Below, one piece after another: positions 1 to 11,715 of a stretch of DNA of 52,803 bases. A model generated the notes under the pieces. The model did no database searches. It saw only the letters and a program-made list of their open reading frames with translations, and was not told where the DNA came from. A program made the translations under genes and the position numbers. The stretch's first letter is position 1. The number at the start of each line of letters is the position of its first letter. The stretch is from Myxococcaceae bacterium (GTDB lineage: Bacteria > Myxococcota > Myxococcia > Myxococcales > Myxococcaceae), in contig JAFGNZ010000335.1 in the NCBI GenBank assembly GCA_016926755.1, positions 1 to 52,803 of the forward strand, written 5' to 3'.

Positions 1-2
1 GC

Positions 3-220
3 CATGTTCAGGCCACCTTGGAGCGCGCGTGCTCGGTGGGCCAGTGCCTGGCCATTCACGACACGACCGAGTTCGTGTTTGCCGGAAGCGACGAGCAACC
101 TCTATTGGATGCTGCGGTAATCGAACCCGCGCCGGGCGGTGCGAAACCCCTACTGGTTGGCGCCCGCTCGGTCCCGACGATGAACTGCTCCGCACGCTCC
201 TGCCCGACGCGGAAGCCTGA
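3..220 (+). pseudogene. Transposase remnant, truncated by the window edge
   Basis: The reading frame from base 3 begins with residues resembling the core of IS4-type transposases, in particular the stretch IHDTTEFVF, where the aspartate is a candidate DDE-site residue of such enzymes. After about 30 codons the similarity stops and the frame runs into low-quality sequence; a second frame carries on to a TGA at 218-220. No terminal inverted repeat or target duplication is visible on the right side. I infer a decayed fragment of an insertion sequence whose 5' part lies outside the window. It could be a chance resemblance, because the recognisable part is short. Confidence 0.4.
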
Positions 221-237
221 CTGGAGAGCGTCAAAGG

Positions 238-256
238 CCTCCGAGCGCTACGGAGG
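238..256 (-). terminator. Hairpin at the end of the sigma/caspase operon
   Basis: CCTCCG and CGGAGG form a perfect six-base stem around a seven-base loop. The loop contains the TAG stop codon of the lipoprotein gene. On the minus strand the stem is followed by CCTTTG, a short T-containing tract. It probably ends the four-gene transcript. Confidence 0.5.
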
Positions 257-1183
257 TGGGGGCCCCGAGACGCAGAAAGGCCGCATCGAAGTCTCGTTGA
301 GCGTCACATGGACCTCAGCGCTCGGAAAGCATGCCGCGAGCCCCGCGTCGCACTGGTAGGGGTAGCCGCGCGTGCAGTCGGACTGGGATGCGCAGCCCTG
401 GATCCAGTAGTCCCGCGCTGGCCCTTCGCTGACGAGCACCGACCCGCGCTGGCGGCAACCGTTGGGAGGCGGCTCGGGGATGGCGCACAGCCGATGTGGC
501 AGAGGAATGATGAGCGCGCCGAGGCATACGCCGCCGTGGCAATCGTCATCCACGTCGCAAGGAGCGCCGAGCGGTACACCGCAGTCGCCGTCTGCCACCG
601 GCACAGGCTCCGGCTCGGGACCAGCATTGGGGCAGCGGAGCGGGAGCATGAAGGTGTGCCAGCCAGCCGGGAGCGATCTGCCCGTCGGGGAGTCTCCAGC
701 GGCGAGCGCCTGCGGCGCGTAGAGCACTCCAAAGCCCTGAGAAGCGCCGAGAATCAGCTCGGAGGGATCGAGCCGCCCGTTGCCATTCGTGTCGAGGTAG
801 GCCACCACGCGGCCGAGGGCGTAGCGCGCACCCGACGGCGTCGTGTAGAGGTGCTGGGGGCCCGGCTCGTCGAACAGGTTCATGACATACGGCTGCGCGA
901 CCTGAGCCGCACTCGCTGTCCCCAGTTGCTCGACAAGCTCGTCGTAGTTGCGGGCCAAGGGCCCCTGGGGGCTCCAGAACATCGCCGTCATGACCAGGGA
1001 CTCGGGGTCCAAAGGTGCGTCGGGGTTCCCGCCGACGACGCCCTGCAGCGTGAACCGGGGCGCGCCGGAGTAAGCGGAGTCGACGAGTGTGTCTCCGCAG
1101 GCGAGTGCACCCAGCGCGAGGCAGACTGGCACGAAAAGGCGACCGCCCCCCACCGCGCCCGAGACTCCATTCACTGGCGCCAT
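248..1183 (-). CDS. Cys-rich lipoprotein with EF-hand-like loop, caspase operon
   Basis: A predicted 311-residue envelope lipoprotein of unknown function, last gene of the sigma-factor operon. The N-terminus has a hydrophobic signal segment ending at Cys29 (ALAC), a slightly non-canonical lipobox. Residues 131-142 (DTNGNGRLDPSE) match the calcium-coordinating pattern of an EF-hand loop. The C-terminal third is rich in cysteines in short C-x-C-like spacings, suggesting disulfides outside the cytoplasm. The start at 1183 is chosen because GGGAGGG lies just upstream and the signal peptide begins there; the frame stays open further upstream but reads as nonsense. It overlaps the end of the caspase gene by 13 bases, so co-translation is likely. 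I do not recognise a named family; a calcium-binding partner or substrate of the caspase is inference. Confidence 0.75.
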   Translation of the reverse strand: MAPVNGVSGAVGGGRLFVPVCLALGALACGDTLVDSAYSGAPRFTLQGVVGGNPDAPLDPESLVMTAMFWSPQGPLARNYDELVEQLGTASAAQVAQPYVMNLFDEPGPQHLYTTPSGARYALGRVVAYLDTNGNGRLDPSELILGASQGFGVLYAPQALAAGDSPTGRSLPAGWHTFMLPLRCPNAGPEPEPVPVADGDCGVPLGAPCDVDDDCHGGVCLGALIIPLPHRLCAIPEPPPNGCRQRGSVLVSEGPARDYWIQGCASQSDCTRGYPYQCDAGLAACFPSAEVHVTLNETSMRPFCVSGPPPP

Positions 1184-2754
1184 ACGAGCCCTCCCGCAGC
1201 CCACCAGGTGAGCGGCGTCGCGATCTCTGTGCCGACCTCCGCCCCCCTTTCGATGACAGCGCGCTTGAAGATCCCCGCCACCGGCCCGCCCTCGAGGCGG
1301 AGGGCGAAGCCCGCGCCGAGGTGCCGCTCCACCGCGAGCAAGCCGCCGAAGCCCGCCCCCCAGGCCGAGCGGTCCGTGACGAGCCGCTGCGTGTCGAAGC
1401 GCTGATGGTGGCCAACGCCCTCCGCGTACAGGCCGAAGGCGAAGCTCAGGTGCGGCAGATCGACGAAACGTTGGAGCGCGAACCCAAGGCCCAGCTCGGA
1501 GTTGCGGCGCGGGAGCAGCCCATCCGCGCTGGTCGCGCCGGCGGTCATGCCGCGCAGGCGCAGGCTGAACGAGCCCCACTCGAAGTCCATGCCCCAGCCG
1601 AGCAGCAGCTGTGGCTGCGCACCCTGGCCCTGAAGCATCGGCCCGCGCCCGGCCGCGAGCAGCGTGAAGCTATGCGCGTGCTCCGCGGGTCCGCCACGCC
1701 GCCGCACGAGCCGGTCGTAGCGCACGGTCTGAAAGGGGAGCGTCGAGAGATCGGCGACGGAGCCAGCGGCGACATGGACCTGATACTCGCGAAACTCGGA
1801 GGGGCTGCGCTGCTGGACGAAGTAGTCCCCGGCACGGAGTGCAAGCTCGCGCCGGGTGCCCTGCGGCGACACCTCGGCGATGACAGCGCCCCCCTCTCGC
1901 TCGGCCATGATGAGGTAGAGCGCGGGCTCGGCAAGCCTGAGCTGTCCCGTGCTGCCCCGCACGTCCGCGGGCACCGAGAGCACGAGCTCTCCGCGTCCCT
2001 TCAGGTCCCACGAATAGGTCGGGTGCTGCAGCGCCACCGTCTGCCCGCTCGAGCGCAGCGTCTGCGAGTAGGAGTAGCTGTACGCCTCGCCGAGGGTGAC
2101 TCTGCCGTCGTCGTCTCTGTCGGCCGCGCCTCGCAGCGCATTGACGAGGTGGTGGGTAAAGAACGAACTCTTCAGCCGATCCGACTCCTGGCTCGACTCT
2201 CCGGCAGAGCTCGAAGTGACAATCGCGAGCCCCTGGGTGGCGATGCTGTCCTGCAGGTCGATGCGGAAGCTCTCCGCGGCACGCACACCCTTGACCCGCG
2301 TGACGGAGCCGGAGCGGCAGGCATCGATGATGAGGACGCGGATGCCCGCGGCGGAGCCTTCGACGAGCGCTTTGAGCTCGTCGAGCGGCAGCTCGGTGCC
2401 TCCGAGGTGGAGCGCGCTCGCGTCAGCATGGCCTGAGTAGAAGACGATGAGCGCCGTGTGCTTGCCCTCGCCGACGCGGGAACGGATCTCCGCGTTCACG
2501 TCCTGCAAGGCCCGGCGCACGCTGGCCGCATCCTCGCCCAGCAGGAGCATCGTGCGGCGCGGCGAGACGTGCCCGTGCTCGCGCAGGGCGTCGGCGATCG
2601 CCCGGGCGTCCTGCTCGGCGTAGAGCAGGCCCACCTCACTCTGGACTCCCACGTTGTGGCCGATAGCGACCACCCAAGTCTCGTCCGGCAGCGCGCGCGC
2701 CGTGAGCGGCAGGACGAGGGCGACCCCCAGGGCGATGGCAAGCGAGGCTCTCAT
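1171..2754 (-). CDS. Secreted caspase-like protease with C-terminal barrel-like domain
   Basis: A 527-residue peptidase C14 (caspase/metacaspase-like) protein. Residues 1-22 form a signal peptide. The caspase fold spans about 25-235: the catalytic histidine is H109 in YSGHA and the catalytic cysteine is C146 in IDACRSG, both present, so the enzyme is probably active. Residues 212-223 (DRDDDGRVTLGE) form an EF-hand-type loop, often seen in bacterial caspase proteins. The last 200 residues have alternating short amphipathic strands ending in an aromatic/Arg-rich segment, like an outer-membrane beta-barrel. It overlaps the anti-sigma gene by four bases (ATGA) and the lipoprotein gene by 13. Substrates are unknown. 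Export of a caspase and its control by an ECF sigma factor point to an envelope or developmental proteolytic switch; that is inference. Confidence 0.88.
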   Translation of the reverse strand: MRASLAIALGVALVLPLTARALPDETWVVAIGHNVGVQSEVGLLYAEQDARAIADALREHGHVSPRRTMLLLGEDAASVRRALQDVNAEIRSRVGEGKHTALIVFYSGHADASALHLGGTELPLDELKALVEGSAAGIRVLIIDACRSGSVTRVKGVRAAESFRIDLQDSIATQGLAIVTSSSAGESSQESDRLKSSFFTHHLVNALRGAADRDDDGRVTLGEAYSYSYSQTLRSSGQTVALQHPTYSWDLKGRGELVLSVPADVRGSTGQLRLAEPALYLIMAEREGGAVIAEVSPQGTRRELALRAGDYFVQQRSPSEFREYQVHVAAGSVADLSTLPFQTVRYDRLVRRRGGPAEHAHSFTLLAAGRGPMLQGQGAQPQLLLGWGMDFEWGSFSLRLRGMTAGATSADGLLPRRNSELGLGFALQRFVDLPHLSFAFGLYAEGVGHHQRFDTQRLVTDRSAWGAGFGGLLAVERHLGAGFALRLEGGPVAGIFKRAVIERGAEVGTEIATPLTWWAAGGLVWRQ

Positions 2755-3521
2755 CTCGCCTTGTCCAGGACGAACGGGGTCATCGCGCAGCTCTTCGGAC
2801 AGCGCGGCTTACCGCTGGTGTCGAGGGTGCAGGCAGGTGTGCCTACCGTGCTCGGGCAGTGGACGAGGTAGAGCGTCTCTCGGCCCGGCTGATCGTCCAG
2901 CGCCACGGCGCCCGGGAGCTCGATACCGGTACCTGCCGCGAAGCGGGTCTGCACGCCGGGCTCGAGAGGCCACGCGGTGTAGAGCGCCCCACCCGCCTCG
3001 ATCCCGAGCACCGAGACGTGGCCCTCTCCCGGGAGATCCACGCTGAACCGGAGGCGATCACCGGGCGCGAAGCGGTCGCCGCTCAGGGCCTCCTCGGCGT
3101 GGTCCCCGGCGAGACGGAAGACGTGGAGCGCGAGCCCGCCCTTCATCCGCGTGTCCACCTCGATCTGCTCGCCGCCGGTGACGATGACGACGGCCACCGC
3201 CGCGGCGGCGGCCAGCGCGACGGGGGTGAGGAGGCCTCGTCCCCACGCGCGGATCCGATCGAAGAGCGACGTGCGCGCACGCGAGTCGACGCCCGCGCGG
3301 ATGCGCGCAAGCATCGCCCGCGGGTCGATCCCGTCGATGGCGCTGAATCCGGCTTCGCGCTCAGCCATGCGGGCGGTGCACGTCTCGCACCCCGCGATGT
3401 GCTGCCGCGCCTCACCTGCCTCGGACTCGGCAACCTCGCCCGCGTGGAGCCGATCGAGCATCCAGTCCGACGGACACTCCGGGCGGCTGTGTCGGAGGCT
3501 GCTGAAGTCGGGAACCGTCAT
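2751..3521 (-). CDS. Membrane anti-sigma factor, zinc-finger N-terminus, DUF4384-like C-terminus
   Basis: A 256-residue single-pass membrane protein. The N-terminal cytoplasmic part carries the ZAS anti-sigma motif H41-x3-C45-x2-C48, which in this family binds zinc and holds the partner ECF sigma factor. One transmembrane helix lies at about 95-117 (Leu/Val/Ala-rich). The remaining 140 residues would be periplasmic and resemble DUF4384, a beta-rich domain often attached to kinases and caspase-like proteins (LRFSVDLPGEGHVSVLG). The start overlaps the sigma gene stop by four bases and the end overlaps the caspase gene by four bases, so the three are one operon. Release of the sigma factor probably follows sensing or proteolysis of the periplasmic domain; whether the caspase itself does this is untested. 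Confidence 0.88.
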   Translation of the reverse strand: MTVPDFSSLRHSRPECPSDWMLDRLHAGEVAESEAGEARQHIAGCETCTARMAEREAGFSAIDGIDPRAMLARIRAGVDSRARTSLFDRIRAWGRGLLTPVALAAAAAVAVVIVTGGEQIEVDTRMKGGLALHVFRLAGDHAEEALSGDRFAPGDRLRFSVDLPGEGHVSVLGIEAGGALYTAWPLEPGVQTRFAAGTGIELPGAVALDDQPGRETLYLVHCPSTVGTPACTLDTSGKPRCPKSCAMTPFVLDKAR

Positions 3522-4117
3522 GACTGCCCCCCACCGGAGAAGCCCGAGGCCTTGCGGGCCGGCGACGCCTCGGCCGCAGCCACGGCTTCGGCGCTCTGCT
3601 CACTGGCCCACTTCTGAAACCGCTCGATCAGGTTGCCCACTGTCCGCTTCGAGACGCCAAGCACCTCGGCCGCCTCCTGGTGCGACATGCCATCGAGGAA
3701 CACGTAGATCGCCGCCTGAGCCTGTTGCTCATCGGCGCCCGCGAGCAGCTTGCGCAGCAGCACGAGGTCGTCGGAGTGAGGGGTGCCGGCTTCGGAGTCG
3801 CCCGCCATCGGCGCGACGTGCGCCTCGTAGAGCTCGGTCCGGCGGGACCGATCCCGGATGAGGTTCAGGCAGTAGTTCGTGGTGACCTGGTAGAGCCAGG
3901 TCGTGAGCTGGCTGCGCTGCTGGAAGCCGCGGATGCTGCTCAGCACGCGGATGAAGATCTCCTGGGTCGCCTCTTCGGCGTCGGCTGGGTTGCCCAGCAG
4001 GTGCAGCGCGCGTCGGTATACTCGCGGGCCGTGCTGCTGAAAGAGCGAGGAGATCTGCTGCGAGTCGGCACGGCTCACACGGGCGCCCGGAGTGTGGGAA
4101 AATCCGGCACCTAGCAT
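3518..4117 (-). CDS. ECF-family RNA polymerase sigma factor
   Basis: Sigma-70 family factor of the extracytoplasmic function type. Region 2 runs from [16 protein letters not shown] through [19 protein letters not shown], with the typical [13 protein letters not shown] -10 recognition helix; region 4 is the helix-turn-helix [23 protein letters not shown]. There is no region 3, as in all ECF factors. The start is uncertain. In-frame ATGs lie at 4246, 4219, 4135 and 4117; I chose 4117 because it leaves about 17 residues before region 2, the usual ECF length, though no start has a strong ribosome-binding site. It overlaps the anti-sigma gene by four bases. It is probably autoregulatory, acting on the divergent promoter region 4247-4420. 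Confidence 0.85.
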
Positions 4118-4357
4118 AAGGGAGGCGGCACCCATCACCAAGGGCCTGGGCCACGTGCCAGCGGACAGGCGGGCGGGGCATGCGGCGCCTCGGCTCGCTT
4201 CGCCCGCTCCCAACGACATGGGCTTGCTCTCATTCCATGGATCCATGACGACTCACGCACCCTGCGGGAGGACGCCTCTTCAGACCCGCGAGGGGAAAAT
4301 CCGGGCAACGGGCCTTTTACGAATCGCGAGCCACGCCGCCAGGCAACGCCCCCTCCC

Positions 4358-4372
4358 AAGGCTGGCAGCCTT
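4358..4372. promoter_or_regulatory. Perfect palindrome in the sigma/MCP divergent promoter region
   Basis: AAGGCTGGCAGCCTT is a perfect 7+1+7 palindrome in the region between the ECF sigma gene and the chemotaxis receptor gene, about 48 bases before the receptor start. Its place and symmetry suit a dimeric repressor or activator site; a small hairpin is the alternative. Confidence 0.4.
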
Positions 4373-4420
4373 CAGGTCCCCTGCTTTCACGCCGCCTCCG
4401 CCGCTGATACTGGGAGACCC

Positions 4421-6010
4421 ATGAAGAGCCTGAGCATTGGCAGCAGGTTGATCCTGTCGTTCGCCGTCCTCATCGCGCTGCTCGTCGGCGTGGGCTGGCT
4501 GAGCCTGAGCCGGATGGCCGCCCTCCACGAGTCGCTCGAAGAGGTGGCGAGCAAGCGCTGGATCCAGGTGCGCCTCGCCCAGGAGGCCATGCGCCTGGCG
4601 GAGGAGAACAGCCGGATCACCCTGGAGCTGTTCCTCGTCACGGATCGCGCGGAGATCGGCCGGCTCCTCGCCGCGCAAGATGAGAACCGGCGCACCATCT
4701 CCAGCCAGATGACCCAGCTCGAGGAGCGCCTCGAGCGGGCCCAGGGCAAGTCCCTCTTCGCCACCGTGAAGGCCCTGCGGATCCGCTACGTGGACAGCTT
4801 CATGAGGGCCCGCTCCTTGCTGCAAGAGGGGAAGCGAAGCGAGGCGATGGACCTGATGACCCAGGAGGTGATCCCCAACATCGAGAACCTCGAGCGCGCG
4901 TGGGCCGGGTTCGTCGACTACCAGGGCGAGCTGCTGAACGAGGGCGCCGTGCAGAGCCGGGTCACCTATCAGCGTGCTCGCGCGCTGGCGCTGATCCTGA
5001 TCGCCGCGGCGGTGGCGCTGGCGGCGCTGCTCGGCCTCACCGTCACTCGCAGCATCACCGTCCCCATCCGCCAGGTGGTGGCGCTGACGGCCCGCATCGC
5101 CCAGGGCGACCTTCTGCAGAAGATCGAGATCACCCGGCGCGACGAGACCGGCAAGCTCCAGGCGGCGGTGAAGGAGATGTCCGAGCGGCTGGCGGCGATC
5201 ATCGGCCAGGTGCGCGCCGGGGCCACGGCGCTGAACGCCGCGTCAGCGCAGGTCTCGTCCTCCGCCCAGCTCGTCGCCCAGGGCAGCAGCGAGCAGGCCG
5301 CCTCGGTGGAGGAGACCACCGCCAGCCTCCAGGAGATCTCTGCCTCCATCCGCCTGAACGCCGAGAACAGCCGCCGGACCGAGCAGCTGGCCCTCCAGGG
5401 CGCGCGGGACGCGGAGGAGAGCGGCACGGCGGTGCGCGAGACGGTGGCGGCGATGAGGGAGATCACGGAGAGGATCTCGATCATCGAGGAGATCGCCTAC
5501 CAGACCAACCTCCTCGCGCTGAACGCCGCGATCGAGGCGGCCCGAGCCAGCGAGCATGGCCGGGGCTTCGCGGTGGTGGCCACGGAGGTGCGCAAGCTCT
5601 CCGAGCGGAGCCAGCTTGCCGCCAGTGAGATCAGCGGGCTGGCGGGCTCGAGCGTCAGCGTGGCGGAGGATTCGGGCCAACGGCTCACCACGCTGCTCCC
5701 CTCGATCCGGGCCACGGCGGAGCGGGTCCAGGAGGTGGCCACGGCCTCCCAAGGGCAGTCGGCCCAGGTGGCGCAGATCGGCACGGCCATGGACCAACTG
5801 AACCTGGTCACCCAGCGCAACGCCTCGGCCGCCGAGGAGCTGGCGGCCACGGCCGAGGAGCTGGCCGCGCAAGCGGACTCGCTGCATCAGCTCATGTCCT
5901 ACTTCTCCGTGGAAGAGAGGGCCGAGCTCTCCCTCCCGAGCTCCCGGCCCCGGCTCGGGCCCCCGGGCTCCTCCCGGGAAGGGGGCGCGTCATCGGCTCG
6001 TCGCCCATGA
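4421..6010 (+). CDS. Methyl-accepting chemotaxis protein
   Basis: A 529-residue transmembrane chemoreceptor. TM1 is about residues 9-29, followed by a helical ligand-binding domain of the four-helix-bundle (4HB_MCP) type to about 187, TM2 at about 188-208, HAMP at about 209-262, and a long signalling coiled coil. The conserved hairpin tip that contacts CheA and CheW is intact ([20 protein letters not shown]). The tail is rich in Ser, Pro, Arg and Gly and has no NWETF-type CheR tether. GGGAGA lies six bases before the ATG. It is divergent from the sigma/caspase operon and convergent with a hybrid kinase. A CheR homologue is encoded 5.7 kb away, but no CheA, CheW or CheB is in the window, so its pathway partners are not established. 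The ligand is unknown. Confidence 0.92.
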
Positions 6011-6018
6011 GCGGCCGG

Positions 6019-6039
6019 GGAGGGCCTCATCCGCCCTCC
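6019..6039. terminator. Bidirectional hairpin between MCP and hybrid kinase
   Basis: GGAGGGC and GCCCTCC form a seven-base stem with a seven-base loop in the 16-base gap and the first codons of two convergent genes. The TGA stop of the minus-strand kinase (6027-6029) lies in the loop. There is no clear T tract, so termination efficiency is uncertain. Confidence 0.45.
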
Positions 6040-9000
6040 ACGGGAAGGAAGACCCGGAAGGCAGTGCCACGTCCCGGCTCGCTCTCGACGGTGATGCGCC
6101 CGCCCAGCCCCGTGATGATGCCGTGGCAGATGGACAGGCCCAGCCCCGTTCCTACTCCCGCGGGCTTGGTGGTGAAGAACGGATCGAACAGGCGGCTCAG
6201 GTTCTCGGGAGGGATGCCCGCCCCGGTGTCCTTCACCGTCACCACGGCCCACCCCGCGTCATCCCGCTGGGTGGTGAGACGGATCTCGTGGGCCTTCGCA
6301 TCCGTGCCTTCGGGGATGGCCTGCGCGGCGTTGACGATGAGGTTGAGGAACACCTGCCCGAGCCGCGTCTCGCTGGCGGTGACGGGAGGCAGCGGTCCGT
6401 ACTCTTTGACCAGGCGCGCGCGGTGACGGATCTCGCTGCGCGCCATGTTCGCGCAGAGATCCAACACCGCGTGCACATCCACAGGCCCGCGCCGCTCCTC
6501 GTCTCCGCGGGAGAATGTCTTGAGATCGCGCACGATCTCGCTGACCCGGCTGCCTCCCAGGAGCGTCTCCTGAAGCGCCTGCCGCACCTCCTGGCCCCGA
6601 GGCCCCGCCAGGCTCTCTCCCGCTTCCGCCAACGCGCGCAGCTCATCGTCGATGTAGCGCAGGTTGCTCGTCATGAAGGACAAGGGGTTGTTGATCTCGT
6701 GTGCCACGCTGGCGGCCAGCGTCCCCAGCGAGGCCATGCGATCCGCGGCGCGCAACCGCGCCTGCACGGACTTGCGCTCGGTGATGTCGCGCACGATGGA
6801 CACCTCCGCTGGCTGTCCGTCGAACCCCAGCGTGAACGACACCACCTCGCCCAGCACCTGCCGGCCCGTGCGGTGCAGCCAGCGGATCTCGGTGGCGCCG
6901 CCGCCCAGGGCCTCGGTGAGCGCGCTCTCCTCCCCGGGGAGGACGAGCTCCGCCATGCGGCGCCGCCGCAGCTCCTCGGCGCGCTCATACCCCAGCATCA
7001 CGACGCCCGCCGGGTTGATGAAGATCAGCGCTCCGTCCCGGTGGATGAGGATGGCATCCGGGCTGCGGTCGATGAGGGTCCGGAAGCGCTCCTCGTTCTC
7101 CGCGAGCTCCTGGTTGGCCGCGCGCAGGGCCGTCTCCGCCTGCTGCCGCTCCGCGTACAGCCGTGCATTCTCGATGGAGATGGCCGCCTGCGCGCCGATG
7201 TGGCCCAGCAGGGAGAGGTGCCCCTGGGAGAACGCCCGGGTCGTGAGGGAGTTCTCCAGGTACAGCACCCCGTAGAACTCCTCCTTGCGAAGCAGCGGCA
7301 GACAGAGAACGGAGCGGGCCCGGCCGCGCAGCAGCTCGCCCTCGCTCGTGAAGGCGTGCGGTTGGGCTGTGTCGTCGATGAGGACGGGCTCGCGGGTGCG
7401 CCGCACATAGCTCAGCAGCGTCCAGGGCAGCGCCTCCGGCCCTTCCGGGAGCCTGCCCCCCGTGGCGTCCGAGACGGTCACCAGCTCCAGCGTGTCCCCC
7501 TGCTTGAGCAGCAGCGCTCCCCGCTGAGCGCCCGCGCTCTGCAGCGCCACGCGCATGAGCGTGTCCACCAGCCGCTCCAGGACGATCTCGCTGGAGACGG
7601 CCCGCTGGGCCTTGACGAGGCTCAGCGCATCGAGCTGGGAGGAGCCCTGGCTCGTGGAGCTGTCTCCCCCCGCGCTGAGGAGCGCCACGGACGGCCACTG
7701 GGCCTCGAGCTGCCGCGCCTTGCCCTCGGCGCCCCACTGCCGGTACGCGTCCCAGGCCTCGTGAGCGTAGACGGCCGCGACCCGCCCCAGCCCCCGCTCC
7801 TTCGAGAAGCGGGCGGCCAGCTCCGCGGCCAGCGCCGCATTGGGGAGATGGCTGTGCTCGCGGGCCGACTGCACGGCCTCGTCGTAGGCCCGCAGCGCCT
7901 CCTCGGTCCTCCCCGTCAGCCGCGCCAGCTCGGCCGCCACCATCCTCTCCGCCGGGCGGAAGTTCTCCGGGCAGAGCCCTGCCCAGATGGTGAGCTGCTG
8001 GTGATGCCGCTGGATGATCTCCAGGAACTCTCGTTGCCGCGGCGGCGGCGCGCCCGGGAAGCATGCGGCGAGGATCAGCGCCCGGAACAGGAAGAACTCG
8101 AACCGGGCGATATAGCTGGACAGCGCCCCCACCACCTTCGCCGCGGCTTCGGAGGCCTGGAGCGCCTCCTCGTAGGCGCCCCCCATGAAGCGCGACTTCA
8201 TCTTGTTGAGGAAATAGAAGGCGGACAGGATCTTCAGGCCCCTGCTCTCCAACCGGGCCTCGAGCGCTGCCTCGTCGAAGCCGTCCCCGTCCAGGGAGTC
8301 CAACGACTCCGAGAGCCCTCGCAGCTGCTGCGCATAGCGCTGATAGAGGATGATGAAGAAGCCGATGTCCTCGTAGTTCGCCTTCCGCACGAACTCGAGA
8401 CGTGCCACCGACTCCTGATACAGCTCCCCCAGCTCGCGCCCCATGAGCAGCTGATCCATGACGATGTTGTCACAGCAGTAGCACATGATCCGGAAGTCGC
8501 CTCTGAGGAGCGCCTGACTGAAGGCCTCCTGAAAGAGCCCATGGGAGACGGAGAACGGCCGGACCCAGCGGCTGATGAGCGCCAGGACGAACAAGACGCC
8601 GCTGCGCTGGGCGGAGGAGCCAGGGCGCTCCACCAGGCGCTGCGCGAGCTGGCCAAACGCATGGCCCGCCTCATACTTCTCCTCCAGCGCGATACAGCCC
8701 ACGTAGCCGTACCAGACGTACCCATGCGCGGAGGCCTCCGTGGTGCCGTAGCGAAGGGAGAGGGCCACCATCCGGCAGATGTGGAAGGCCAGCAGCCCCC
8801 CGGACGAGTAGAGCGCGGGCACGGTCAGGTCCGCGAGGATGCCCATGGCCGCCCTCATCCGGGGATCCGTCATGGGCGGCAGCTCAATGAGGCTCTCGAT
8901 GGGGCGCGCTCCCAGCAGCGCCCACACCTCCGCGTTGGCGGCCGCAATCTCCTCCGAGGTAGGGCTGGGCGGCAGGGGCATGCCGAACTTCTCCAAGCAC

Positions 9001-11507
9001 TCGAGGAGGCAGTCCACCGCGAGCTGAACCTCACCAGCGGCCAGGTGGAGGGTGCTCTTGAGGCGGTACACCTCGGCCAGATCCTGGGGCGTGCGCGCCC
9101 GGGGCAGCAGCTCGTCCACTCCGCTGCGCGCCCCGGCGGTGTCTCCCCCCATCAGCTCGCAGCTCGCCTGATCCAGCCGCAGCTTGAACACGAGCGCGTA
9201 CTCCCCCTCCCACGGATCGCCGGGCAGCAGGGCCAAGGCGGCGGTAAAGAAGCCCACGGCCGAGCTGTAGGCCGCGGAGGCCTTGGCCCGCCAGCCCGCC
9301 TCGGCGTTCAGCCGCGCCAGGCGGTGGCGCTCCTCGCCGTCCGCGATCAACTCCACGCCGGCGTTGAGCTGGCCCACCACGTCGAAGAGCCGCTCGTGCA
9401 GCTCCTCCGGCGAGAGGCCCGCCAGCAGCAGGCGGCCGATCCGCAGGTGCGTGGCCTTGCGATCCCCCTCGGGAATGAGGGCATAGGCCGCCTGCTGGAT
9501 GCGGTCGTGCAGGAAGCGGTACTGGCCGGGGCTCATCCGCACCACCACCTCCTCGTGGAGGGCGGGCTCCAGCTCCTTCTCCACCTCGGGGGCCTCACGG
9601 CCGCGGAGCAGGGCCAGCGTCGGCACGGAGAACGCGTTGCCCAGGCATGCGGCCAGGCGCAGCACCTGCTGCGTGCTCTCTGGGAAGAGCCGCAGCCTGC
9701 CCGCCATGAAGTCCACCACGTTGTCCGAGTACCCCCGGGCCTTGGCCCCCGCCTCGTCCCACCTCCAGCCTCCCTCCGGAGCACGCGACAGCAACCCGTC
9801 CTGGTGCAACGTCTGCAGAAGCTGGAGCAGGAAGAAGGGATTGCCTCCCGTCTTCTCCTGCAGCACGCCGGACAGGGCCTGTACCACCTCGGGGCGCGTG
9901 CCCGGCAGGGCATCCGCCACCAGCTGCCGCGTCTGCGCCAGCCCCAGGGCGTTCAGGTGGAGGTCCCCCACCCGCGCCCCCGCCTTGCGCGCTTCGTCCA
10001 GCACCAGCCTGAGCGGGTGCGAAGGGTGCACCTCGTTGTCCCGGTAGGCGCCCACCCACAACAGCGGCAGCGTGTCCGCATGCGTGGTGAGGTACTTGAG
10101 GAGCTGGAGGCTGGCGAAGTCCGCCCACTGCAGATCATCCAGGAACAGCACCAGCGGGCGCCCGGGTGTGGCGAAGACGTTGAGGAAGCGCTGGAAGACG
10201 CGGTGGAAGCGGTTCCGCGACTCCTGAGGGGGCAGCTCTGGGACGGCCGGCTGCCTGCCCGTGATGCTCTCCAGCTGGGGGATCACATTCACCAGCACCT
10301 GCCCGTTGCCCTCGAAGGCCTCCAGCAGCCGCTGGCGCCAGGCTTCCACCGCCGCGTCGCTGCCGGCCAGCAGGTGTTGCACCAGGCCCTTGAAGGCCTG
10401 CGCCAGGGTGGCATAGGGCACATCGCGCTGGAACTGATCGAACTTGCCGCTGAGGAAGAAGCCATGCCGCAGCAGGACTGGCTGGTGCAGCTCGCGCACC
10501 ACCGATGACTTGCCAATGCCGGAGTAGCCGCGCACCAGCATCCACTCCGAGCGCCCCTCGCGCGCCACGCGCTCGAAGGCTCCCAGCAGGGCCTTCACCT
10601 CGCCCTCGCGGCCATACAGCCGTTGGGGGAGCTGGAAGCGGGCGGGGAAGTCCTGCGTGCCCAACGTGAAGCCCTCCCGCGCCCCCCGCTCGAGTCGCTC
10701 GCGGCAGCTCTCCAGATCGGCCTTGAGCCCCTCGGCGCTTTGGTAGCGCTCCTCGGGCACCTTGGCCATCAGCTTGAGCACCACCGCCGATAGCATGGGG
10801 GGAATGGAGGGCTGCCGCTCGTGCGGCGGGACGGGAGCCTGGGCCAGGTGCGCATGCAGCCACTCCAGCGCGTCCTTCCCCTGAAAGGGGAGGCTGCCCG
10901 TCAGCAGCTGATAGAAGGTGATCCCCAGCGAGTAGAAGTCCGTGCGGTAGTCCAGCGAGCGGTTCATCCGCCCCGACTGTTCCGGGGACCTGTAGGCCGG
11001 CGTGCCTTCCATGAGCTGCAGGGGCGCGGCCTGCACATGCTCCACCTGCTGCAGCGTGGCGATGCCGAAGTCTATGAGCCAGGGGGCTCCCGCGGGAGAG
11101 AGAAGGATGTTGGCGGGCTTGAGATCCTTGTGGGTGACGCCGCGCCGGTGCACCTCCGCGAGCGTGGCCGCCAGGGAGATGGCAAGGGCCAGGAAGCGCG
11201 CCGGCTCGAGCGGTGCCCCCGCCTGCTCCGAGAGCTCCCCTCCTCCAATGTCTTCCAGCACCAGCACGGGCCGATCCTGGTGCACCTCGAAGGCATGGGC
11301 CCTGATCACCCGAGGCGTGCCGTCCAGGCGCCGCAGCAGGCTGTACTCGTGCTCGAGCCTGGCGTGCTCGCGAGGCCCCGGGTGCTCGGAACGAGGCGTC
11401 TTGAGGACGACCGGCAACCGAGCTTCCACCTGGATGGCGCGGAAGAGGAGATGGGAGCCCCTCTCCTGCAGCGGGCTGAGGAGCGTGTAACCTGGAATCT
11501 CAATCAT
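6027..11507 (-). CDS. Ser/Thr kinase-AAA ATPase-GAF-PAS-histidine kinase fusion
   Basis: An 1826-residue cytoplasmic signalling protein. An N-terminal Hanks-type kinase carries HKDLKPAN (about 126-133) and DFG (about 146-148). An AAA_16/STAND-like ATPase follows, with Walker A GYSGIGKSS (about 327-335) and a Walker B-like LFLDDLQWAD (near 454-463), then a long helical repeat region, a GAF domain, a PAS domain, and a C-terminal histidine kinase with H1603 in VAHEINNPLSF and an HATPase domain (NLIVNAAQAI, DTGAGI, GTGLGLS). Such multi-output kinases are known from myxobacteria and cyanobacteria. The ATG at 11507 has GGGGGAAG five bases upstream; a GTG at 11522 is the alternative. No response regulator is adjacent. 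The CheR gene lies 208 bases upstream in the same direction. Confidence 0.9.
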   Translation of the reverse strand: MIEIPGYTLLSPLQERGSHLLFRAIQVEARLPVVLKTPRSEHPGPREHARLEHEYSLLRRLDGTPRVIRAHAFEVHQDRPVLVLEDIGGGELSEQAGAPLEPARFLALAISLAATLAEVHRRGVTHKDLKPANILLSPAGAPWLIDFGIATLQQVEHVQAAPLQLMEGTPAYRSPEQSGRMNRSLDYRTDFYSLGITFYQLLTGSLPFQGKDALEWLHAHLAQAPVPPHERQPSIPPMLSAVVLKLMAKVPEERYQSAEGLKADLESCRERLERGAREGFTLGTQDFPARFQLPQRLYGREGEVKALLGAFERVAREGRSEWMLVRGYSGIGKSSVVRELHQPVLLRHGFFLSGKFDQFQRDVPYATLAQAFKGLVQHLLAGSDAAVEAWRQRLLEAFEGNGQVLVNVIPQLESITGRQPAVPELPPQESRNRFHRVFQRFLNVFATPGRPLVLFLDDLQWADFASLQLLKYLTTHADTLPLLWVGAYRDNEVHPSHPLRLVLDEARKAGARVGDLHLNALGLAQTRQLVADALPGTRPEVVQALSGVLQEKTGGNPFFLLQLLQTLHQDGLLSRAPEGGWRWDEAGAKARGYSDNVVDFMAGRLRLFPESTQQVLRLAACLGNAFSVPTLALLRGREAPEVEKELEPALHEEVVVRMSPGQYRFLHDRIQQAAYALIPEGDRKATHLRIGRLLLAGLSPEELHERLFDVVGQLNAGVELIADGEERHRLARLNAEAGWRAKASAAYSSAVGFFTAALALLPGDPWEGEYALVFKLRLDQASCELMGGDTAGARSGVDELLPRARTPQDLAEVYRLKSTLHLAAGEVQLAVDCLLECLEKFGMPLPPSPTSEEIAAANAEVWALLGARPIESLIELPPMTDPRMRAAMGILADLTVPALYSSGGLLAFHICRMVALSLRYGTTEASAHGYVWYGYVGCIALEEKYEAGHAFGQLAQRLVERPGSSAQRSGVLFVLALISRWVRPFSVSHGLFQEAFSQALLRGDFRIMCYCCDNIVMDQLLMGRELGELYQESVARLEFVRKANYEDIGFFIILYQRYAQQLRGLSESLDSLDGDGFDEAALEARLESRGLKILSAFYFLNKMKSRFMGGAYEEALQASEAAAKVVGALSSYIARFEFFLFRALILAACFPGAPPPRQREFLEIIQRHHQQLTIWAGLCPENFRPAERMVAAELARLTGRTEEALRAYDEAVQSAREHSHLPNAALAAELAARFSKERGLGRVAAVYAHEAWDAYRQWGAEGKARQLEAQWPSVALLSAGGDSSTSQGSSQLDALSLVKAQRAVSSEIVLERLVDTLMRVALQSAGAQRGALLLKQGDTLELVTVSDATGGRLPEGPEALPWTLLSYVRRTREPVLIDDTAQPHAFTSEGELLRGRARSVLCLPLLRKEEFYGVLYLENSLTTRAFSQGHLSLLGHIGAQAAISIENARLYAERQQAETALRAANQELAENEERFRTLIDRSPDAILIHRDGALIFINPAGVVMLGYERAEELRRRRMAELVLPGEESALTEALGGGATEIRWLHRTGRQVLGEVVSFTLGFDGQPAEVSIVRDITERKSVQARLRAADRMASLGTLAASVAHEINNPLSFMTSNLRYIDDELRALAEAGESLAGPRGQEVRQALQETLLGGSRVSEIVRDLKTFSRGDEERRGPVDVHAVLDLCANMARSEIRHRARLVKEYGPLPPVTASETRLGQVFLNLIVNAAQAIPEGTDAKAHEIRLTTQRDDAGWAVVTVKDTGAGIPPENLSRLFDPFFTTKPAGVGTGLGLSICHGIITGLGGRITVESEPGRGTAFRVFLPVEGG

Positions 11508-11715
11508 CCACTTCCCCCACACGGCCCCCGCGCATTATCGCCGTGCGTCGACCTCCGGAGAATGGCTCCAGCCAGAATTCCCAAGAGCGCCGCGAAGGCG
11601 GATCAGGAAGAGGAACAGCCGGGGAAGGAAAGCCTCTTCCGAGCCGGGGTCGCATGGAGGTGGAGGTGGGGAAGCGGCCGAGCAGGCAGCGCCCCTATCG
11701 GTCTCACGCCAGCTC

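Follow-up and report, generated by a model that had tools for sequence, protein, structure and literature searches.

A conserved sigma factor cassette with a predicted envelope caspase homologue in a Myxococcaceae genome, and a candidate cleavage motif shared by caspase and anti-sigma factor

Background

What does a bacterial caspase homologue do when its gene is joined to those of an extracytoplasmic function (ECF) sigma factor and a membrane anti-sigma factor? Thinking about the role of bacterial caspase homologues mostly follows the analogy with cell death. The question is raised by four genes on the minus strand of a 52,803-nucleotide stretch of a Myxococcaceae bacterium (GenBank assembly GCA_016926755.1, contig JAFGNZ010000335.1, positions 1 to 52,803; the whole stretch is hereafter the window), which encode a sigma factor, an anti-sigma factor, a caspase homologue of family C14 and a lipoprotein. 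The original prediction for this locus, made from the DNA letters, was an envelope-located proteolytic signalling or cell-death module in a combination not described before. Here, we present a computational analysis of the cassette and its relatives. The safest statement is that it represents an autoregulated ECF cassette whose fixed members include an exported caspase homologue and a lipoprotein; in addition, a proteolytic signalling module is plausible, and the sequences contain a candidate cleavage motif.

Genes for sigma-70 factors accompany four of the five metacaspases of Myxococcus xanthus, and the pairing also occurs in Anaeromyxobacter, Haliangium, Sorangium, Ralstonia and Fibrobacter (PMC3501461, Asplund-Samuelsson et al. 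2012). In the available parts of that account a transcription link is suggested for these operons, and autolysis appears in its discussion. With a metacaspase/orthocaspase gene and a sigma gene in one putative operon and in the same bacterial group, the window cassette belongs, by its gene content, with these operons; its core is known, and the combination can no longer be called undescribed. Unlike for the window cassette, the same parts of the account name no anti-sigma factor, lipoprotein, outer-membrane barrel, promoter or motif. The barrel of the caspase, the lipoprotein as fourth member, the conserved promoter and the shared R-x-K-G motif are apparently undescribed, and among the matches listed by an open-access literature search, none describes a caspase that carries an outer-membrane barrel or that cleaves an anti-sigma factor.

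A conserved four-gene cassette

The four genes overlap by 4, 4 and 13 bases, as the minus-strand coordinates of their open reading frames (ORFs) confirm:

4246-3518, minus strand: ECF sigma factor gene (Pfam Sigma70_r2 8e-19 and Sigma70_r4_2 1.5e-7, both above cut-offs)
3521-2751, minus strand: membrane anti-sigma gene, overlapping the sigma gene by 4 bases
2754-1171, minus strand: caspase homologue gene (family C14), overlapping the anti-sigma gene by 4 bases
1183-248, minus strand: lipoprotein gene, overlapping the caspase gene by 13 bases

Relatives were collected by a profile search of genome contigs with a 13-row alignment, which gave at least 583 pattern matches and at least 323 relatives. 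The best 80 loci were kept; these are named, mostly myxobacterial loci, and all counts of the gene set rest on them. Among the matches listed, Pyxidicoccus caerfyrddinensis comes closest of the named relatives, with 71% identity, ahead of Archangium lansinium with 69%. Searching the ORFs with profiles detected the sigma factor in 71, the anti-sigma factor in 72 and the lipoprotein in 73 of the 80 loci, with profiles iterated on these same loci, which favours the finding of members. The synteny across myxobacteria on which the original prediction was to be checked holds, all four genes being present in 65 of 80 loci, and in 59 they lie on a single strand and in order. Judged by stop codons, the order is lipoprotein, sigma, anti-sigma, caspase in 34 loci and sigma, anti-sigma, caspase, lipoprotein in 25, so that the lipoprotein gene stands either before the sigma gene or after the caspase gene; six loci have the four genes rearranged, and 15 have fewer than four, including some cut by contig ends. 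Gene junctions ending in TGA were dropped as evidence because the counting rule is too easily met by chance.

The core of the cassette also has paralogues. Four further sets of sigma, anti-sigma and caspase genes lie in the same genome (contigs C331, C343, C301 and C220; the sigma match of the C301 set is a short fragment only), and caspase matches at E 1e-5 occur in 50 of 59 relatives, with eight in the window's own genome and up to 12 in one relative. For the alignments used below, the caspase set omits six of the 80 loci for short or odd length (L075, L083, L092, L117, L124, L139), the lipoprotein set 19 of 71 usable sequences, and the anti-sigma set seven of 66 usable and a further six unusable ones.

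An intact caspase with a predicted outer-membrane barrel

The features of the caspase are as follows:

Caspase protein: signal-like helix, residues 2-14; caspase domain, about 25-250; beta-sandwich, 258-345; C-terminal beta-barrel, 360-526
2428-2430, minus strand: codon of catalytic His109, invariant in 75 of 75 aligned rows
2317-2319, minus strand: codon of catalytic Cys146, invariant in 75 of 75 rows
2287-2301, minus strand: T152-R-V-K-G156, candidate autoprocessing site after Cys146 (K155 and G156 in 75 of 75 rows, R153 in 68 of 75)
1677-1177, minus strand: predicted outer-membrane beta-barrel with long antiparallel strands, caspase residues 360-526

The Pfam Peptidase_C14 match (9e-9) is above its cut-off. 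The His109/Cys146 pair had been read as intact, rightly so in view of the invariant columns, and the dyad is intact in 139 of 139 caspase/anti-sigma pairs. An AlphaFold2 model built with 75 sequences (mean predicted local distance difference test, pLDDT, 86.9; predicted template modelling score, pTM, 0.80) matched caspases, MALT1 and legumain in Foldseek, plus small outer-membrane barrels. In the VIA structure comparison, model residues 24-264 aligned with metacaspase-4 (6w8r; Z 20.6, root-mean-square deviation 2.9, 209 residues), to which a profile match of 2.5e-6 also exists over positions 30-112. The VIA rows mostly span caspase residues 13-262 and are hence silent on the barrel. Absence of the p10 domain separates orthocaspases from metacaspases; here, VIA aligns the model up to residue 264 with caspase chains.

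The barrel matched OmpA (7.9e-6 and 1.8e-5), OmpW (8.4e-5) and OmpX (1.1e-4) in Foldseek, as well as NspA. In each of the 75 aligned rows 80% or more of its columns are occupied, and the last residue is F, L or W in 66 of the 75 caspases, the window caspase ending in Q. According to the model, a small beta-barrel would anchor the caspase in the outer membrane, which strengthens the envelope location given in the original prediction. As both ends of small OmpA-type barrels, which about eight antiparallel strands close, face the periplasm, the caspase domain would share a compartment with the periplasmic domain of the anti-sigma factor. Export of caspase and lipoprotein is predicted from the N-terminal sequences, the barrel and the lipobox.

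In the available parts of the respective papers, orthocaspases cleave after basic residues and process themselves (PMC5756287), and the acidic residues of the TbMC2 S1 pocket are Asp95 and Asp211 (PMC6426788). The residues equated with these by motif position are Asp49 (73 of 75 rows) and Asp144 (75 of 75). Orthocaspase kinship and the acidic pocket residues lead us to expect that the window caspase would cut after Arg or Lys.

A motif shared by the caspase and the anti-sigma factor

The anti-sigma factor has the following features:

Anti-sigma protein: ZAS-like N-terminal helices; membrane helix, residues 86-114; low-confidence linker, 115-130; periplasmic DUF4384-like beta-domain, 131-254
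3138-3149, minus strand: R125-M-K127-G128, candidate cleavage site in the periplasmic linker (of the 72 rows with letters here, 67 have R, 69 K and all 72 G)

An H41-x3-C45-x2-C48 motif, one membrane helix in the AlphaFold2 model (mean pLDDT 87.0, pTM 0.56) and the adjoining sigma gene fit an anti-sigma factor of the ZAS type, as had been proposed. The window protein itself scores below the Pfam cut-offs (zf-HC2 E 0.044, DUF4384 E 0.009); among the 59 aligned anti-sigma factors, of which the window protein is one, DUF4384 finds a match at E 0.1 in 41 (best 8e-10) and zf-HC2 in 39 (best 2e-7). In a fold search the periplasmic domain had no match in the PDB at E 0.001. Gene pairing and the ZAS features make this protein the putative anti-sigma factor of the adjoining sigma factor.

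The R-x-K-G motif stands in two segments for which the models give low confidence, namely the caspase loop of residues 149-162 (pLDDT below 50) and the anti-sigma linker between membrane helix and beta-domain (blocks 57 and 64), and both segments are therefore predicted to be disordered. Motif counts were taken as presence in a fixed linker window; six of the 139 pairs are duplicates of one contig, which leaves 133 distinct pairs. Over these, the linker window holds 99 copies of R-x-K-G and the rest of the same anti-sigma ORFs four. One of 52 lipoproteins has the motif. Among the 119 distinct pairs of the K type, the linker carries it in 98 and the caspase loop in 105. In a second subfamily, which came in via lower-scoring anti-sigma factors of 12 relatives, the caspase loop reads [AGSD]RG in 11 of 11 pairs and the linker [AS]R[GSK] in 10 of 11, vs 6 of 119 in the K type. 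Within the window's own genome both partners carry the motif in five of five sets, and three other anti-sigma factors of the family are without it.

In one relative (locus L215 of genome G035, 4129-6661), an anti-sigma factor with xKG is followed by two proteins with the motif HESGHxLGL, which we take to be that of a metalloprotease and possibly of another protease partner.

A conserved promoter and a small predicted regulon

The sigma factor consists of the sigma2 and sigma4 regions only and scores 78 bits against TIGR02937 (cut-off 42.9), which makes it of ECF type. Its start is uncertain because homology begins at about codon 57, near a GTG at 4078 that is an alternative to the ATG at 4246; the segment 4246-4079 may be a leader. 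Upstream lies the following element:

4308-4283, minus strand: predicted sigma-dependent promoter TTGCCCGGATTTTCCCCTCGCGGGTC, of the form TTGCC-N16-GGGTC, 62 nt before the ATG at 4246

An unsupervised word-pair count found TGCC-N17-GGTC in 17 of 70 cassette upstream regions vs 0.86 expected from the loci themselves, and in ten shuffles of the 70 regions no word pair exceeded 12. With spacings of 16 to 18 the dyad is present in 20 of 70 regions, 5' of whichever gene leads, lipoprotein or sigma. Exact copies of the 26-nt promoter occur on contig C242 of the same genome and in genome G013. An extended 31-nt form with one mismatch allowed gave 13 matches in six of 59 genomes, against five for its control over all 59 genomes, one of these inside the six. 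The window-type caspase is present in all six genomes; the extended promoter was thus found in six of the nine genomes known to have this caspase (no match in G007, G009 and G033), in none of 29 tested genomes without it, and in none of the 21 remaining genomes.

Candidate ORFs start 35 to 129 nt 3' of the 13 sites, and three of these ORFs are the cassette itself. Products of the other predicted targets include a trypsin-ricin-lectin and a YHYH lipoprotein, an astacin, an alpha/beta hydrolase and, in genome G071, a muramidase with a peptidoglycan-binding domain; some of the proteins have no Pfam match. The exact copy on contig C242 precedes a C-type lectin lipoprotein (L256, 3039-2227, minus strand), whose relative in G013 (53% identity, E 5e-70) also has a similar promoter site. 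These results support autoregulation and a small secreted regulon, and we infer that the sigma factor of the cassette acts at the TTGCC-N16-GGGTC promoter.

Just before the GTG at 4078, a second stretch (4090-4115, minus strand) shares CCGGATTTTCCC with the promoter and is possibly a decayed or second promoter copy. A scan for sigma-70-type promoters found none. The hairpin said to end the four-gene unit was not recovered: a terminator scan of positions 1-4700 gave only two sites, both within the lipoprotein gene at about 1138-1156, and the predicted fold of window positions 262-170 (minus strand) does not surpass that of shuffled sequences, with z -1.3 and 21 of 200 shuffles as good. Rfam and tRNA scans of the window gave no match each.

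The lipoprotein as fourth member

The lipoprotein is a conserved fourth member of the cassette, as judged from the gene set:

Lipoprotein: lipid-carrying Cys29; conserved domain, about residues 22-210; Cys-rich tail

Across 52 rows, conservation of the lipobox column of Cys29 reaches 90% or more, and the family has no Pfam match above cut-off, no NCBIfam match and no PDB profile match at E 0.1. Its profile appears specific since its few matches in the window's own genome all fall at caspase sets: three are better than E 0.4, one on contig C42 and two on C343, and the remaining three caspase sets show no clear lipoprotein of the family. Lys at position +2 marks inner-membrane lipoproteins in M. 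xanthus, according to the available part of PMC3222651. Where the lipoprotein gene lies downstream, 26 of 33 copies have Gly at this position, and where it lies upstream, 21 of 38 have Asp; no copy has Lys, and the outer membrane is therefore only our default guess for its location.

Interpretation and alternatives

The original description of a dedicated ECF sigma/anti-sigma pair, accompanied by a lipoprotein and by a caspase homologue that is exported and has its catalytic residues intact, has stood up in the sequences of the relatives, where the genes are conserved as a unit. Gene set, dyad, shared motif, promoter and target identities are read from sequence, and the interpretation that we prefer, at a probability of roughly 0.4, is that of an autoregulated ECF switch with the envelope caspase as site-1 protease of the anti-sigma factor. 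The ZAS anti-sigma factor, which has a single membrane helix and exposes its DUF4384-like domain to the periplasm, would hold the sigma factor, and a periplasmic orthocaspase, accompanied by the lipoprotein, would sit on the outer membrane via its small beta-barrel. Once activated, or on meeting the anti-sigma factor, the caspase would cut the juxtamembrane linker after the Lys of R-x-K-G, and the same specificity would serve its self-processing at the R-x-K-G loop that follows its catalytic Cys. Intramembrane proteolysis would next release the sigma factor, which would use TTGCC-N16-GGGTC promoters to transcribe its own operon and a few genes of secreted hydrolases, lectins and lipoproteins. 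The steps that we infer are the specificity, the cleavage, the direction of signalling, the pairing of sigma factor with promoter and the role of the lipoprotein; caspase cleavage of the anti-sigma factor is the most economical single mechanism because it takes in the motif, the compartment that the two proteins would share and the constant linkage of their genes.

Several observations weigh against this interpretation. On a caspase tree built without the loop, the switch from K to R in the motif is one change, and the Arg at the second motif position shows no covariation after relatedness is considered (1.0 pairs changing in the same and 0.8 in the opposite direction, of six). Raw Fisher values consequently overstate the co-switch, and raw covariation statistics were dropped as evidence after the recount on 133 distinct sequences and the tree test. 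The motif and the caspase also part company in places. For six anti-sigma factors the stretch retrieved around them contains no caspase (L176, L211, L215, L227, L229, L241), and four of these (L215, L227, L229, L241) keep xKG at the usual place. At L241 (genome G028, 3860-4465) the sigma/anti-sigma pair, with RIKG kept, is followed by a barrel-only protein lacking a caspase domain, whose barrel is 46% identical over 151 residues (E 2e-42) to that of the C301 paralogue. Further, xKG linkers are paired with caspases without KG at L206 and L210, and at L081, L125, L085 and L130 the linker motif is broken or altered beside K-type caspases. Anti-sigma factors with xKG but no matching caspase could be served by caspases in trans, since the genomes hold several, or the motif could have another reader. 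Taken alone, TTGCC-N16-18-GGGTC is rarer genome-wide (36 matches) than its reversed control (65), and it is the extended form alone that stands out. Finally, the predicted tether poses a problem, as the outer membrane is far from a linker about 10 to 14 residues off the inner membrane.

A bolder version of the preferred interpretation would answer this last point as well. The caspase, as site-1 protease, would cut a copy of its own activation-loop motif, and the cassette could read failure of delivery to the outer membrane: a caspase not seated there would meet the anti-sigma factor at the inner membrane and cut it, and the sigma factor would then restore supply, with hydrolases and surface lipoproteins being secreted. 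Such a failure would be readable because caspase and lipoprotein take separate routes to the outer membrane, via barrel assembly and lipoprotein transport. We regard this version as doubtful, and its delivery-sensing part is conjecture.

The main rival holds that the caspase is only an output and that a third protease reads R-x-K-G, maturing the caspase and cutting the anti-sigma factor, or that direct sensing releases the sigma factor. The four anti-sigma factors that keep xKG with no caspase found nearby speak for it, as does a promoter that is predicted to drive trypsin, astacin and muramidase genes too, among which the caspase may be one output of several. It requires, however, a further protease that has not been seen and whose specificity would be the one that orthocaspases are already expected to have, and the caspase gene is linked to the sigma and anti-sigma genes whereas the other targets lie elsewhere in the genome; we consider it unlikely, though a serious contender. 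The resemblance of the linker motif to the caspase's own loop would also suit an anti-sigma factor that restrains the caspase, its linker or periplasmic domain lying in the active site as a pseudosubstrate and the cassette serving envelope protease control; in alphaproteobacterial orthocaspases DUF4384 is fused to the caspase, according to the available part of PMC6426788. Yet the ECF/anti-sigma pair with its autoregulatory promoter is already a complete transcription switch, and nothing in the window sequence points to an inhibitor fold, as a PDB match for the periplasmic domain is absent at the threshold given above; we judge this arrangement improbable.

Equally improbable, in our judgement, is that the motif match is coincidental, the linker motif serving folding or topology through its positive charge and the loop motif being structural. 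The observation was made post hoc, the switch is a single evolutionary event and the motif occurs without a nearby caspase; against coincidence, three residues at the same spacing are near-invariant in two poorly ordered segments of unrelated operon partners, and other anti-sigma factors of the family manage without them. Least likely is a cell-death or autolysis module, as put forward for Myxococcus metacaspases in the available parts of PMC3501461. It would fit a caspase homologue and the muramidase target in G071, but one predicted target in another genome is insufficient, and the remaining targets are secreted digestive or surface proteins. The four conserved genes include no toxin, holin or death-domain partner, and PADLOC gave no match at E 0.001; lacking partner genes and such a match, the cell-death half of the original prediction was rejected for want of evidence.

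Relation to known systems and significance

In regulated intramembrane proteolysis of the DegS-RseP/RseA type, a PDZ serine protease cuts an ECF anti-sigma factor at site 1. The proposed switch resembles it in having a membrane anti-sigma factor that extends a domain into the periplasm and whose candidate site-1 cut would fall shortly past the membrane helix, and differs in that the candidate protease is a C14 caspase of the same operon. Cell-surface signalling likewise encodes an outer-membrane barrel, an inner-membrane anti-sigma factor and an ECF sigma factor together; its transducer is a 22-strand TonB-dependent receptor with a signalling domain, whereas here the barrel is small, OmpA/OmpW/OmpX-like and joined to a caspase domain. 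With MaOC1 and other orthocaspases, as far as the available parts of PMC5756287 describe them, the window caspase shares the C14 domain, the His-Cys dyad and, as expected features, basic P1 specificity and autoprocessing; unlike them it is predicted to be exported, with a C-terminal sandwich and barrel and a dedicated ECF switch. For ECF54, proteolytic control has also been proposed from gene context (nearby subtilase genes and genes with caspase-related CHAT domains), but the group is described, in the available parts of PMC8999054, as without an anti-sigma factor, which the window cassette has in ZAS form.

If the preferred mechanism is true, a large and repeatedly duplicated caspase family would consist of signalling proteases that release a sigma factor. 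Cleavage site, specificity and target genes are all named and hence testable. Even without the cleavage step, the barrel caspase, its partner lipoprotein and the predicted regulon represent handles absent from the available parts of the 2012 description.

Neighbouring genes and other caspase relatives

Divergent from the four-gene unit, positions 4421-6010 of the window encode a methyl-accepting chemotaxis protein, followed at 6027-11522 by an ORF of 1831 residues with, by eye, a Ser/Thr kinase-like start and a histidine kinase-like end. Elsewhere, four close caspase relatives with a lipoprotein (L070, L071, L072, L090) had no sigma or anti-sigma gene found within 5 kb upstream (3.6 kb for L072). 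In the window's own genome, a single ORF on contig C200 (L050, 6807-3802, minus strand) fuses polysaccharide deacetylase, caspase and TPR domains.

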